A DNA stretch of 64,000 bases, taken from positions 1-64,000 of the forward strand of contig NZ_ANBM01000005.1 of assembly GCF_002100115.1 (NCBI RefSeq), written 5' to 3'. Below the pieces are notes generated by a model, which worked only from the letters and a program-made list of their open reading frames with translations, did no database searches and had not been told where the DNA came from. This DNA is from Anaerovibrio sp. JC8. Lineage in GTDB: Bacteria; Bacillota; Negativicutes; Selenomonadales; Selenomonadaceae. Positions 8,358 to 55,777 of the stretch are shown one piece after another. Position 1 is the first letter of the stretch. Every line of letters starts with the position of its first letter. A program made the translations under genes and the position numbers.

Positions 8358-9779
8358 TCAGTTTTCAGTCTGTACAACGTACTGTCTGTCTTCCTCTTCA
8401 TCATCTGAGTATTTTGCACCTTCAGTGTGACCTACTACAACACTGCTGAGAGCAAACAGGGCCAGGGAGTTTGGAATAACCATCAGATTATTGAACATGT
8501 CAGTCAGCTCCCATACCAGATTGTTGGAGAGGCAGGAGCCCATGAATACGAATACGATAGCCACGAGGGAGAATACCTTTACTGCGGACTTGCCCATGAG
8601 GTATTCCACATTAATCTTTGCAAAGAGGTTCCAGCTGAGGATAGTGGAAAATGCGAAGAACAACAGGCTGACAGCAATAAATGCACTACCAAGGCTGCTG
8701 CCAAAGAGGCTGCCGAAGGCCAGCTGAGCCATGTTGGTCTTGGATACACCCTCTGCTGCACCGCCGGCCAATACGCCGTCACCGGTATAAAGGGTGGTAA
8801 CAACTACCAGAGCGGTCATGGTAAGAACAACGAAGGTATCAATGAAAACACCGACCATGGCTACAACGCCCTGATCATGTGGCTTTTTAACATTTGCCAA
8901 TGCATGAGCATGTGGAGTGGAACCCATACCAGCCTCGTTGGAGAACAGGCCGCGCTTTACGCCCTGGCTGATAGCGGTCTTAATTGCCATACCCCAGCTA
9001 CCGCCGATGATTGCATCAGGATTGAAGGCATAGAAGAAAATAAGGGAAACTGCTTCAGGAACACGGTCATAATTTGCCAGAAGGATAACTGCACCACCGA
9101 TAAGATAGAAAACAGCCATAATAGGAACCAGCTTTTCAGTAATTCTGGCAATACGCTTGGTACCACCGAGGAATACGAAGCCGGCCAACAGAGCAATGAC
9201 AACACCAATACCCCATGCAGGAATACCAAAGGCAGCCTCACTGGTCTCACCAATGGAATTGGACTGAACCATGCAGCCCATGAAGCCAAGGGCAAGGGTA
9301 ATGGCTACAGCAAAGAAGCCTGCCAGGAACTTACCAAAGGCACCTGGGAAAGCTCTGCGGATGTAGTAAACCGGTCCACCAAGAACTGTGCCGTCTTCCT
9401 TAACAACACGGGTCTCCTGGGCCAGTACAGCCTCTGCATAGTTGGTTGCCATGCCAAAGAAGGCAATAATCCACATCCAGAAAATAGCACCAGGACCACC
9501 AGTGAGAATTGCACCAGAGGCACCAACTACGTTACCAGTACCAACCTGGGCAGCTACAGCAGTTGCCAATGCCTGGAAGGAGCTCATGCCACCCTTTCCA
9601 TCCTCACCATGAAGGGAGAAATTGCCAAAGAAACGTCTGAAGCCCTCACCAAGGCAGCGAACCTGAACGAAGCGGGTTCTGATAGTATAATACAGGCCCA
9701 AGCCAATTAAAAGAATACAGAGAATGTAATCTGATAAGTAGGTGTTGACCATTTGTACGAGTTCTAATAAGTAGTCCAT
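8358..9779 (-). CDS. Sodium:alanine/glycine symporter, AGCS family
   Basis: 473 residues from ATG 9779, 8 nt behind GGAGG; the frame extends to a TTG at 9794 that overlaps this site. About ten hydrophobic segments are visible. Family signatures: ATAVAAQVGTGNVVGASGAI, GGPGAIFWMW (about 90-115) and GLFSNEAGMGSTPHAHA (about 290-306). AGCS carriers import alanine or glycine with sodium. The glycine riboswitch in the 5' leader argues that glycine is the relevant substrate here. The gene is monocistronic, between a bidirectional terminator and its riboswitch leader. Confidence 0.93.
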   Translation of the reverse strand: MDYLLELVQMVNTYLSDYILCILLIGLGLYYTIRTRFVQVRCLGEGFRRFFGNFSLHGEDGKGGMSSFQALATAVAAQVGTGNVVGASGAILTGGPGAIFWMWIIAFFGMATNYAEAVLAQETRVVKEDGTVLGGPVYYIRRAFPGAFGKFLAGFFAVAITLALGFMGCMVQSNSIGETSEAAFGIPAWGIGVVIALLAGFVFLGGTKRIARITEKLVPIMAVFYLIGGAVILLANYDRVPEAVSLIFFYAFNPDAIIGGSWGMAIKTAISQGVKRGLFSNEAGMGSTPHAHALANVKKPHDQGVVAMVGVFIDTFVVLTMTALVVVTTLYTGDGVLAGGAAEGVSKTNMAQLAFGSLFGSSLGSAFIAVSLLFFAFSTILSWNLFAKINVEYLMGKSAVKVFSLVAIVFVFMGSCLSNNLVWELTDMFNNLMVIPNSLALFALSSVVVGHTEGAKYSDDEEEDRQYVVQTEN

Positions 9780-45109: not shown

Positions 45110-45739
45110 TTATTTATTCATGGTAGCAGCATTAGTAACAGCATGAGCAAGATCCAGGGCTCCGCTGGCAACGGTAATACCACCTGCCACGGCACCTACT
45201 CCGGTACAGCACATCACTGTCCCAATAGCCACAGAAGCTACACCACTAACTGTGCTCACTATAAGCTTTGTACACTTTTTGGCTGATTCGCTTATCGGAA
45301 GCTTATCTACCACAAAGTTTACGCCCTTTCCAATAAAGGAAAAGATAGCACCCAATGGACCTCCGCCAGCAACCTGATCCAATTCTTCCTCTGTAAGCTG
45401 AACCTTTGCAGGCTTTTTCCCCATGAATATCTTCTCATGGAAGTCCTTCAGGAAAAGGTTGGCGTAAACCATACGGAATTCATCAAATTCTTCCCTTGTG
45501 TAGTTGCCTGGAACTGCTGACATTGCGGATGTAAAGGCCTTCTCATTATCATAGACACTCATTACTGCCTCGAACAAGCCCATGTCCTCACTTAGCCTTT
45601 CAGCCAATTTTTTAATGTCCCTGTTCTGAAAAACCTTTTCGGCACGCTCTTCAGGAATCTCCTGAATCATCTTCGCCAGCTTTTCGCCATCAATTGTATT
45701 CTTAATGATCTGAACTTTATTTTGATTCAATCCTGCCAT
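45110..45739 (-). CDS. Double-glycine-leader precursor with large leader and hydrophobic glycine-rich core
   Basis: 209 residues. Residues 1-125 form a charged, helical leader ending in LTEEELDQVAGGG, the hallmark cleavage region of Nif11/NHLP-type and class II bacteriocin leaders. The core of about 85 residues begins PLGAIFSFIGKGVNF and continues with a hydrophobic, Gly/Ala/Val-rich stretch (TVSGVASVAIGTVMCCTG, AVAGGITVASGALD) containing a CC pair. A C39 peptidase-transporter would normally cut and export it, but none is nearby. It could be a bacteriocin or a self-inserting membrane peptide. It has its own terminator. Confidence 0.72.
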   Translation of the reverse strand: MAGLNQNKVQIIKNTIDGEKLAKMIQEIPEERAEKVFQNRDIKKLAERLSEDMGLFEAVMSVYDNEKAFTSAMSAVPGNYTREEFDEFRMVYANLFLKDFHEKIFMGKKPAKVQLTEEELDQVAGGGPLGAIFSFIGKGVNFVVDKLPISESAKKCTKLIVSTVSGVASVAIGTVMCCTGVGAVAGGITVASGALDLAHAVTNAATMNK

Positions 45740-45944
45740 TTTAATCGCCTCCCAATTATCATCTTTGCCTATATATACGGATATTAATAAATTCTATTAC
45801 AAATAATTTGGAAGTAAAAATTTACCCGGCATTTGGACCATGGAAGGCGCCCATAATTATTGGTCTTTAGGCCAGTTATTTTTTCGAGGACAATATTATA
45901 TAATGTACACAGAGAGAGGATATATAAAAAAGGGGGGGCGTTCT

Positions 45945-52912: not shown

Positions 52913-53326
52913 TTATCCTGCTACTGGACCGTTGGAGCCGCCAACGATAATGCAGAAGGCTACTTTGCCGTCCTTTTTGGTCCTGCCGAAGCCTACGCCA
53001 ATATAGGCACAGGCATTGACACCGTTGCGGCTTTTAGTATTCTTAGGCACTCCGCCTGCCACCTGCTCCAGCTCATCCTCGGAAAGAGACATTTCATTCA
53101 GCTGGTCATGCTCATATTCCTTTAATTCCTCAAGGGTAAATGGCAGGCCAACTTCCTTGGCCAGCGGCAAAACAATTGCCTCTGCTGCTTTTTCACGGAC
53201 AGCCATATCATCAGCCGATGCATCATTTTCCTCAGCAAAAGCCTTGTCCAGTGCATTGAGCTTTTCAGCCAGAGCGGTGTCCTGGGCCAGCTTGTCATAA
53301 AACTTTGCTACATTTTCCTTTGCCAT
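52913..53326 (-). CDS. Nif11-type leader precursor peptide (RiPP/bacteriocin-like)
   Basis: 137 residues. The N-terminal 92 residues match the Nif11-like leader pattern (VAKFYDKLAQDTALAEKLNA, AKEVGLPFTLEELKEY) and end in SLSEDELEQVAGG. The core of 45 residues begins VPKNTKSRNGVNAC, is Gly-rich and has two cysteines 19 residues apart (ACAYIGVGFG and AFCIIVGG), which could form a disulphide or thioether. No modifying enzyme or C39 exporter is within reach. Good Shine-Dalgarno (GGAGG). The gene is bracketed by 23-bp direct repeats of its terminator arm. Confidence 0.82.
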   Translation of the reverse strand: MAKENVAKFYDKLAQDTALAEKLNALDKAFAEENDASADDMAVREKAAEAIVLPLAKEVGLPFTLEELKEYEHDQLNEMSLSEDELEQVAGGVPKNTKSRNGVNACAYIGVGFGRTKKDGKVAFCIIVGGSNGPVAG

Positions 53327-53493: not shown

Positions 53494-53584
53494 ATAATCT
53501 AATTTTTTGTAATAATATAGGCATTTAGTCGTATATATAGACAAGAAGAGATAATAAAACACAAACAGAAAGGAGTGCTTGAAA

Positions 53585-53788
53585 ATGAAAAAGATGGAAA
53601 TTACTTTAAAGGATATGCAGACCATAGCAGGCGGAACCGGACCTCTCAACTATCCATACGGTTCATGTGATCCTCCTATGAAGGAGACCGGACCTCTGGG
53701 AACTGGACCTCTGGGAACCGGACCTCTCAACTCTTGTGATCCTCCTATGAAGGAGACCGGGCCTCTGGGAACTGGACCTCTAAACTAA
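53585..53788 (+). CDS. Short double-glycine-leader peptide with repetitive TGPL/CDPPMKE core
   Basis: 67 residues from ATG 53585, nine nt after AGGAG (a TTG at 53579 is too close). The leader is MKKMEITLKDMQTIAGG, 17 residues with the class II double-glycine pattern. The 50-residue core is TGPLN-YPYGS-CDPPMKE-TGPLG-TGPLG-TGPLN-S-CDPPMKE-TGPLG-TGPLN. So TGPL(G/N) occurs six times and CDPPMKE twice, in a 23-residue unit repeated once with one TGPLG missing. The repeat also holds at DNA level with a 69-nt offset (53666 and 53735). It is proline/glycine-rich with a cysteine in each unit. No transporter or modifying enzyme is adjacent. I do not recognise the family; an exported or modified peptide is the best guess. 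Confidence 0.72.
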   Translation: MKKMEITLKDMQTIAGGTGPLNYPYGSCDPPMKETGPLGTGPLGTGPLNSCDPPMKETGPLGTGPLN

Positions 53789-53851
53789 GTTGCCCCTGGT
53801 AACAACTCGGCAATCCTTATATATGGCCCACTTTAAAAGTCGTGGATGCTT

Positions 53852-53930
53852 AAAAGCTGGTGCCACAATATTCCACTCATCCAAGAAGCCGCTCTAACAA
53901 GGCGGCTTCTTTTTTTCATTCAATTTATAA
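53852..53930 (+). repeat. 79-bp direct repeat, copy 1 (terminator region of the repeat-peptide gene)
   Basis: Same as 55262-55340 with one mismatch (T/C at 53872 versus 55282), offset 1410. It includes the full terminator hairpin. Confidence 0.9.
53885..53917 (+). terminator. Terminator of the repeat-peptide gene
   Basis: GAAGCCGC/GCGGCTTC with a 9-nt loop, followed by seven T. Confidence 0.88.
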
Positions 53931-53972
53931 ACGCCCAATGCACAATTACTTACACTATATTCCGGTTACATA

Positions 53973-54022
53973 GGGGCTGCAGCGACGCGAAGCTAGTCCC
54001 TTCGGGGCTGCAGCCCCTTTTA
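53973..54022. repeat. GC-rich hairpin sequence sharing a motif with dispersed repeat A
   Basis: GGGGCTGCAGC, then GACGCGAAGCTAGTCC (also found in copy A at 11653-11668), then the palindrome GGGGCTGCAGCCCC followed by TTTT. It is much more GC-rich than its surroundings. It may be a terminator or a small repetitive element; the rest of the 53789-54126 gap shows nothing more. Confidence 0.5.
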
Positions 54023-54126
54023 ATTTTGGGCATAATAATAGCCCTGATATATATTGATATCAAGGCTGAAATTGTTTAGTTGAATACCTCTCTATTGTAT
54101 TGAATAATGGATACCAAAGCTTTCAG

Positions 54127-55132: not shown

Positions 55133-55261
55133 TAGAATTTGATACAAGGTAGTACCCACAAATATAGCTATTTACTATTTTTTCAAAATGATTTTCTTTG
55201 CCGCCACTTTCAACCAAGCATAGTGCCAAATAAAATGAAGAACGAGCCCACCAATCATGAC

Positions 55262-55340
55262 AAAAGCTGGTGCCACAATATCCCACTCATCCAAGAAGCC
55301 GCTCTAACAAGGCGGCTTCTTTTTTTCATTCAATTTATAA
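55262..55340 (+). repeat. 79-bp direct repeat, copy 2 (with terminator hairpin)
   Basis: Partner of 53852-53930. The terminator hairpin is at 55295-55327. No plus-strand gene precedes it, so it is an orphan copy. Confidence 0.9.
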
Positions 55341-55370
55341 GAGAGCAGCCATATTATGTCTACATAAAGT

Positions 55371-55411
55371 AAGGCTCCCTTACTACCGATAATGGCAGTG
55401 TGGGAGCCTTT
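55371..55411. terminator. Hairpin after the VOC-family gene
   Basis: AAGGCTCCC and GGGAGCCTT around a 22-nt loop; 19 nt beyond the stop at 55430. Confidence 0.65.
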
Positions 55412-55429: not shown

Positions 55430-55777
55430 TTATTGATTTGGCATTTCAAATAGCTCCAATACCACTCCATCTGGCAACTGCACCCATTTTTCGGGCTTTC
55501 CCGGAATAGAATTCACCTTTTCATAAGCAAGCATTTTAGCCATGGTGTTCTTAAAATCCTGCACCCGTATCCCCAAATGATGAGCTTTACCTACCCCTGA
55601 ATTGTCATCAGAAGCAATCAGCTGAATGCCTCCATCCAACCAGACCTGCTGCAATACACCCTCATTCTCCCGCCGACGGGTTATGGTCATCCCCAATATT
55701 TCCTCAAAAAATTTAATATGCCATTCAATATCCGTCACTGTAATGGCCACGTGATCGATATACGCATGCTTATTCAC
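55430..55777 (-). CDS. VOC-superfamily (glyoxalase-like) protein
   Basis: 115 residues, one VOC module pair: IDHVAITVTDIEWHIKFFEE (metal-ligand His about 9), QQVWLDGGIQLIASD and HHLGIRV, then LPDGVVLELFEMP (terminal Glu ligand). Members are metal-dependent isomerases, dioxygenases or antibiotic-binding proteins. The substrate cannot be told from sequence. Start is weakly supplied with GAGG. Confidence 0.85.
   Translation of the reverse strand: MNKHAYIDHVAITVTDIEWHIKFFEEILGMTITRRRENEGVLQQVWLDGGIQLIASDDNSGVGKAHHLGIRVQDFKNTMAKMLAYEKVNSIPGKPEKWVQLPDGVVLELFEMPNQ

Follow-up and report, generated by a model that had tools for sequence, protein, structure and literature searches.

A repeat-motif double-glycine peptide family of Anaerovibrio and a putative sigma factor-controlled regulon linked to its export

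Introduction

What becomes of a 67-residue peptide that combines a double-glycine leader with a core of repeated motifs, and what switches its gene on? The question is raised by a gene at positions 53585..53788 (+ strand; ATG at 53585, TAA stop codon) of the window, that is, the entire 64,000-nucleotide stretch of the Anaerovibrio sp. JC8 genome that was analysed. A first-pass annotation of this DNA described the product as a double-glycine peptide of no recognised family, proposed that the core is secreted and possibly modified, and suggested that its repeat number can change by slippage. Here, we report a comparative analysis of the gene, its relatives in other genomes, a promoter-like element that precedes them, and the exporter genes and sigma factor genes that are candidate partners of the peptide.

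Results

A double-glycine peptide gene with an internally repeated core

The gene is preceded by a ribosome binding site, AGGAG (53571..53575, +), upstream of the ATG, and is followed, about 95 nt past the stop codon, by a terminator-like hairpin with a T tract (53883..53916, +), assigned by consensus match only. A segment, PLIQEAALTRRLLFFIQFI, is common to two frames at 53846-54079 and 55139-55372, so that the window contains two copies of the terminator-containing segment.

The product consists of a 17-residue leader ending in AGG (MKKMEITLKDMQTIAGG; 53585..53635, +) and a 50-residue core (TGPLNYPYGSCDPPMKETGPLGTGPLGTGPLNSCDPPMKETGPLGTGPLN; 53636..53785, +), the latter characterized by repeat and module comparison. 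With I at -4, M at -7, D at -8 and I at -12, the leader follows the double-glycine pattern of hydrophobic residues at -4, -7 and -12 and an acidic residue at -8 (PMC3140520, PMC6363468). Set against the Gram-negative consensus M(R/K)ELX3E(I/L)X2(I/V)XG(G/A), as quoted in PMC3140520, it is a conservative variant, with I for L, D for E and M for I/L. This residue pattern supports the earlier assignment of the leader to the C39 Gly-Gly type.

Within the core, TGPL occurs six times, followed by G in three cases and by N in the other three, and SCDPPMKE occurs twice. Repeat finders reported two structures: a direct pair of 50 nt at 69-nt spacing (96% identity) and 2.7 tandem copies of a 15-nt unit. 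Direct-repeat finding delimits two 51-nt copies, the first (SCDPPMKETGPLGTGPL) at 53663..53713 (+) and the second, 69 nt 3' of it, at 53732..53782 (+); both encode the same 17-residue stretch, and the three sites at which they differ are all third codon positions and synonymous. The leader, the six TGPL modules, the two CDPPMKE blocks and the 69-nt offset at the DNA level, all pointed out in the first-pass annotation, were thus confirmed on the sequence. The core has a net charge of -2, a GRAVY of -0.61 and 22% proline.

Members and distribution of the peptide family

No match above the Pfam or NCBIfam cut-offs was obtained for the window peptide, and neither this peptide nor any of nine members matched the TIGR03798 or TIGR03793 leader families at E 1. 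The claim that the peptide belongs to no recognised family is borne out; it is now a member of an unnamed family whose 14 leader-bearing genes are spread over 11 genomes (11 of the genes in Selenomonadaceae and three in Oscillospiraceae). These homologues, for which the first-pass annotation had proposed a search, keep the leader, the frame and the modules.

Single-protein and profile searches of 189 genomes of the Selenomonadaceae, with the frames read, identified eight carriers in two genera (Anaerovibrio, g1, and g21): three genes are present in G000, two in the uncultured Anaerovibrio RUG13065 (G015), and one each in Anaerovibrio sp. RM50 (G008), G016, G143, G145, G148 and G153. The two JC8 paralogues of the window gene lie at C5:80287 and C10:65710. 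A scan of named genomes added Ruminococcaceae bacterium YRB3002 (G189; Clostridia, Oscillospiraceae), and 115 genomes of the same family yielded two further genes, in G218 and G219. The distribution is patchy within Anaerovibrio, where the family was found in four of the 16 genomes of the genus. The named strains are presumably of rumen origin.

Leaderless or broken copies in G145 (C25 ~37.4 kb), G146 (C1 ~1.697 Mb), G159 (C8 ~52.7 kb), G150 (L052) and G152 (L060) were left out of the 14, as were a second G146 match (C1:2021119) taken from the profile-search table only and a leader-bearing 64-residue peptide of G159 with loose modules (L051). The second TGPL copy of G145 (L034 ~9346-9534) lacks the leader start and is apparently a decayed duplicate. 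The frames in L052 and L060 are short, end in GPVNETGPLNETGPLTxRR, and are perhaps remnants of the family.

Searches with the peptide found no match in the plasmid records and no relative in the viral contigs. Phage matches (23 records; collagen-like, tail or unannotated among the matches listed) were rejected as effects of composition. At E up to 1, 22 of the 189 Selenomonadaceae genomes match, the low-scoring ones mostly through chance frames, and five of the eight matching genomes among the 115 Oscillospiraceae do so through long or unrelated frames. A Clostridia-wide search with an Oscillospiraceae core revealed no further genus: four of 391 sampled genomes match, namely the query genome and three others that were rejected because the matches fall in frames of 231-965 residues, a judgement made by frame length only. 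The corresponding Negativicutes-wide search likewise added no genus, its four matches in 380 genomes being three carriers and the leaderless G159 copy; this search missed five known carriers (G016, G143, G145, G148 and G153), so that both class-wide searches are of low sensitivity and absence elsewhere is weak evidence.

Core modules and their variation

The cores reuse the same pieces, TGPL(G/N), AVGPV, ETGPL, YPY and SCDPP or SCDPA, in varying order and number, with one to nine TGPL copies and core lengths from 14 to 69 residues across the 14 cores. One 16-residue unit distinguishes the G145 gene from that of G153, and their cores show 11 synonymous differences against one non-synonymous. 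The picture is less clear for the seven remaining pairs, whose whole-gene pN/pS lies between 0.21 and 0.59, the alignment of the repeats being uncertain; the G143-G148 pair shows three differences only, and core pN/pS reaches 0.74 in the own3-G015b pair. Taken together, these comparisons support the view that selection acts on the core, which is homologous among the members of this unnamed family. The number of modules does vary among paralogues and species, as the first-pass annotation anticipated; slippage, the mechanism that it named, is a conjecture, the copy differences seen being those between genes.

The leaders of all three Oscillospiraceae peptides comprise 50 residues and are unlike that of the window peptide. 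By eye they look Nif11-like; TIGR03798 gave no match to the YRB3002 precursor at E 0.001.

A promoter-like box shared by the Selenomonadaceae genes

Box comparison placed an ECF-type promoter-like element, GTAAT-N16-CGTATATATAG, at 53509..53540 (+), upstream of the peptide gene. A box scan located an exact match at 45769..45800 (-), in front of a gene for a 209-residue Gly-Gly protein (45110..45739, -), which, by its leader frame and box, is the second gene in the window under the same element. That protein has a leader ending in VAGG and a hydrophobic C-terminal part, and a relative with the same box is present in G015 (L167).

The pattern GTAAT-N16-CGTATRTATAG, with at most one mismatch, stands before all ten testable Selenomonadaceae members; the second G015 gene, which starts at a contig end, is outside these ten. 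In the nine TGPL genes measured, the second block lies 51-58 nt before the start codon. When the downstream block by itself was used to gather sites, GTAAT was found exactly 16 nt upstream in 18 of 19 distinct sites, and the nineteenth (L004) was rejected as a chance match. The 18-base downstream block, with up to three mismatches, occurs twice in the window against 0.09 expected. Across the loci examined, part of which were chosen by the 16-nt pattern, a spacer of 16 occurs in 42 sites and spacers of 12-15 or 17-21 in none. When 23 chosen genomes were scanned at no more than one mismatch, 63 sites were detected in 14 of them, against eight for the reversed pattern; the JC8 genome contributes 11, against none. 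The box was found in none of six related Selenomonadaceae genomes that lack a C39 match and in none of the three Oscillospiraceae genomes. With two blocks at a fixed spacing, the element has the shape of an ECF sigma factor promoter, and we treat it as a putative one.

Of the 18 defining sites, 17 have a Gly-Gly frame that begins no more than 200 nt away, as have 23 of the 45 other sites. Such frames occur at 1113 of 20000 random places in the loci examined (5.6%; P 1.7e-17) and, on a stricter background, account for 42 of the 373 frames no longer than 320 residues (11%; P 5e-11) in 21 stretches that are themselves Gly-Gly-rich; because box sites in related genomes are not independent, both P values overstate the case. 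Among the non-defining sites, no recognisable Gly-Gly frame follows any of the four in the JC8 genome or 18 of the other 41, and what comes after the resulting 22 of 45 is a secreted-looking protein, a tiny frame or nothing that could be recognised. In L155, L163 and L169, the box stands before long proteins (542-667 residues, by eye) with signal-peptide-like starts, which are possibly secreted members of the regulon.

NHLM-type exporters and an adjacent sigma factor gene

The first-pass annotation suggested looking for C39 or ABC exporter genes elsewhere in the genome, and two C39 genes were found, each in a complete NHLM set of C39 ABC, second ABC and HlyD genes. The matches score 975.9 and 975.7 bits for TIGR03796 (cut-off 853.3), 719.8 and 761.5 bits for TIGR03797 (cut-off 709.4), and 232.4 and 224.5 bits for TIGR03794 (cut-off 156.2). 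The window gene, on contig C5, is far from both sets (C7 and C3), and the exporter is accordingly assigned by leader type and the Oscillospiraceae loci only. In all three of those loci, the precursor gene lies directly upstream of genes for a small membrane protein, a C39 ABC protein and a second ABC protein. In YRB3002, the one Oscillospiraceae locus that was profile-scanned, the C39 gene scores 909.3 bits against the TIGR03796 cut-off of 853.3, the second ABC gene, at 672 bits, falls just under the TIGR03797 cut-off of 709.4, and the small protein is a weak TIGR03794 match (25.9 against 156.2).

We examined nine Selenomonadaceae exporter loci with downstream genes (L166 repeats L090). A sigma factor gene directly follows the second ABC gene in seven of them: L086, which is in the JC8 genome, L090, L092, L093, L094, L161 and L162. 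The encoded proteins comprise 181-183 residues with sigma-70 regions 2 and 4, and it is on this two-region build that the ECF label rests. PF04542 and PF08281 are above cut-off in all six sigma proteins scanned, and PF07638 (Sigma70_ECF) in three of the six; the L161 and L162 copies are assigned by similarity only. The box recurs past the sigma gene in six of the seven loci, at 12-32 nt in five and at 513 nt in L086; in L092, a box lies inside the exporter locus, before a Gly-Gly gene. No sigma gene was found in the stretch of L091 examined. The other JC8 exporter locus, L085, has genes for a second sigma factor and a STAS-domain protein further downstream, past an outer-membrane-type gene. 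Judging from the shape of the box, its neighbourhood and its co-occurrence with these genes, the sigma factor encoded next to the exporter probably reads the box.

Two further products were noted at the exporter loci. A secreted-looking protein of the AGSQDFTLINGTGR type is encoded after the sigma gene and box in four Anaerovibrio genomes (L086 3937-4308, L090 4073-4444, L161 2054-2425 and L162 2085-2525), and its L086 copy has no Pfam match. A conserved small peptide of the type DFSxxSKVKDSLKAHLHExRxxKRELSWDELDNLAAAGG is encoded, divergent, beside the NHLM exporter in five genomes (L086 12679-12867, L090 12358-12552, L092 12473-12661, L093 6828-7013 and L094 12803-13015).

Genes next to the peptide gene

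The divergent neighbour of the window gene (52913..53326, -) encodes a Nif11-like Gly-Gly precursor, with TIGR03798 and PF07862 above cut-off, and is not under the TGPL box. A second Gly-Gly precursor gene lies within 1 kb in all six Anaerovibrio TGPL loci with enough sequence: Nif11-like in the window, L006 and L039, and of an RPRIRLHG type in L007, L037 and L038. The TGPL-type box was sought before the Nif11 genes, and the ten that were aligned have another common box instead; in L006 (12099-15856, -) and the window (52913-53326, -) it appears as a conserved upstream stretch, roughly GATAACACTTTTAT...CATGGATATAAAGGACAAGAG, which is perhaps read by the second sigma factor, that of L085. Two nearly identical, putatively glyoxalase-like genes occupy 55430-55777 of the window and 4885-5235 of L006, about 13 kb apart; their near-identity suggests a recent duplication.

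Discussion

The reading that we favour, at a probability of roughly 0.65, is that the window gene belongs to a sigma-switched regulon of Gly-Gly peptides and that its product is a repeat-motif peptide exported by an NHLM system. The sigma factor encoded next to the exporter would recognise the box and turn on Gly-Gly peptide genes scattered over the genome; cleavage after AGG would fall to the C39 domain of the NHLM exporter; and the exporter would release the core, probably unmodified. Outside the cell, the repeated motif could act as a multivalent ligand or as the source of several signal peptides, and this last step is the weakest of the scheme.

Several alternatives bear on the core. That it is a RiPP precursor, with Thr, Cys or Asp/Lys modified before export by an enzyme encoded elsewhere, would agree with the recurrence of Thr, Cys, Asp and Lys positions in the cores, with the frequent service of NHLM systems and Nif11 precursors to RiPPs (PMC2887384), and with a LanC-like protein of the carrier G189, encoded on a different contig from the precursor. 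Against it, among nine of the 11 carrier genomes (G143 and G148 were left out of this search), YcaO is found in none, the LanC-like protein in G189 alone, and SPASM enzymes in eight, with G219 the exception, so these enzymes do not track the peptide family; the gap between precursor and exporter genes holds no gene in the three Oscillospiraceae loci; and four of the 14 cores are free of Cys. Modification, raised as a possibility in the first-pass annotation, consequently gained no backing and strikes us as rather improbable; as far as the three enzyme classes searched can tell, the core most likely leaves the cell unmodified. The core might also be a bacteriocin of the class II type that is exported through the NHLM system and kills relatives, its producers carrying an immunity gene; this would account for the Gly-Gly leader with a bacteriocin-type exporter, for the patchy, weapon-like distribution, and for the weak matches to TIGR03949 (class IIb bacteriocin) in six of nine members, the best at E 0.003. 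Bacteriocins of this kind are expected to have a cationic or amphipathic core, which the window peptide lacks; all 14 cores have a net charge of -5 to +1, a GRAVY below 0.1 and 16-23% proline and, being hydrophilic, as a rule not cationic and proline-rich, would not be expected to form an amphipathic helix. By eye, no immunity-like neighbour recurs, though immunity genes can be unlinked. On composition the bacteriocin reading is unlikely; a core that is hydrophilic and repeats its motifs points less to a pore-former than to a ligand or signal.

The likeness between the two groups of cores, and the nature of the box, have to be weighed in the same way. Convergence of Gly-Pro-rich low-complexity sequence could make Selenomonadaceae and Oscillospiraceae cores look alike: such cores also match unrelated collagen-like phage proteins, at E down to 2e-6, as well as long chance frames, and in shuffles that leave TGPL-type blocks intact, six of the nine Selenomonadaceae cores are equalled or beaten in some pairs, by up to 15 of 400. 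However, the window, RM50 and G015b cores, compared with each of the three Oscillospiraceae cores, score above all 400 residue shuffles and all 400 block shuffles; TGPL[GN]YPY directly follows the Gly-Gly in all three Oscillospiraceae peptides and in the window and RM50 peptides; the longest stretches common to both groups include TGPLNSCDP and ETGPLGAVGPV; and NHLM-type exporters are encoded in the Oscillospiraceae loci and the JC8 genome alike. We hence consider convergence very unlikely. The box, for its part, might be an operator or RNA element, with the sigma factors acting elsewhere. The link between sigma factor and box is one of neighbourhood and co-occurrence, and exporter locus L091 shows neither sigma gene nor box. 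Against this explanation stand the fixed 16-nt spacer between two short blocks, with CGTA within the second, the position of the box 51-58 nt ahead of the start codon in the nine TGPL genes measured, and the sites past the sigma gene in six of the seven sigma-bearing loci, and it too appears unlikely to us.

Returning to the sigma-switched, NHLM-exported peptide, we tentatively suggest, at somewhat less than even odds, a wider picture. An ECF sigma factor encoded directly after NHLM exporter genes would control a scattered Gly-Gly regulon in Anaerovibrio and a sister genus, and one class of its cargo would be a combinatorial peptide with reusable motifs (TGPL, YPY, AVGPV and SCDPP). Carried by different leaders, these motifs would have passed between Negativicutes and Clostridia, and the motif rather than a fold would be what functions as a signal or ligand between species. 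Through the box, many orphan secreted peptides that escape grouping by protein similarity become accessible at the level of the promoter, so that a search for the box finds peptides. The analysis further connects an unnamed modular family with one definite type of exporter and with a candidate regulator. The same core vocabulary on two leaders in two classes makes the role of a secreted repeat peptide testable.

Comparison with known systems

NHLM exporters, Gly-Gly leaders and ECF sigma factors are all known kinds. As far as our literature searches reach, and among the matches listed, the apparent link of box, sigma factor and exporter is new, as is the modular core family; no description of a sigma-exporter-peptide regulon was found among those matches. 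Within the reach of the searches, it also seems new that what appears to be a single core vocabulary is joined to unlike leaders in two classes of bacteria.

The sigma-W and sigma-X ECF promoters of Bacillus subtilis have a short -35 block, a spacer of 16-17 and a -10 block with CGTA or CGAC. The layout of our box is similar; here the blocks are GTAAT and an extended CGTATRTATAG, and the putative regulon is one of exported peptides.

The closest resemblance at the level of the exporter is to the NHLM system (Haft et al. 2010, PMC2887384), which, in the part of the paper available, shares the TIGR03794/TIGR03796/TIGR03797 exporters, scattered paralogous Gly-Gly precursors and Nif11-like neighbours. 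The present case differs in the sigma gene after the exporter and the box common to the peptide genes, a sigma factor being unmentioned in that part. Unlike Nif11/NHLP precursors (TIGR03798/TIGR03793), the peptide of the window carries a short leader that matches neither of these families, and its core is built of shuffled TGPL, YPY and SCDPP modules; YcaO and LanC searches detected no TOMM or lanthionine enzyme in the JC8 genome.

Gram-negative double-glycine peptides with cognate C39 transporters (Dirix et al. 2004, as quoted in PMC3140520) have the same E-hydrophobic-x3-acidic-hydrophobic-x2-hydrophobic-x-G-G leader. Compared with them, the window peptide stands apart in its lack of a Pfam or NCBIfam match and in modules common to two classes on different leaders. 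Finally, SigX of Streptococcus mutans is reported to be an alternative sigma factor that controls bacteriocin genes (PMC4497675), and the system proposed here would resemble it in placing the synthesis of an exported peptide under a, here putative, sigma factor. The leader families differ, and the factor in Anaerovibrio is of the ECF type and is encoded beside the NHLM exporter itself.
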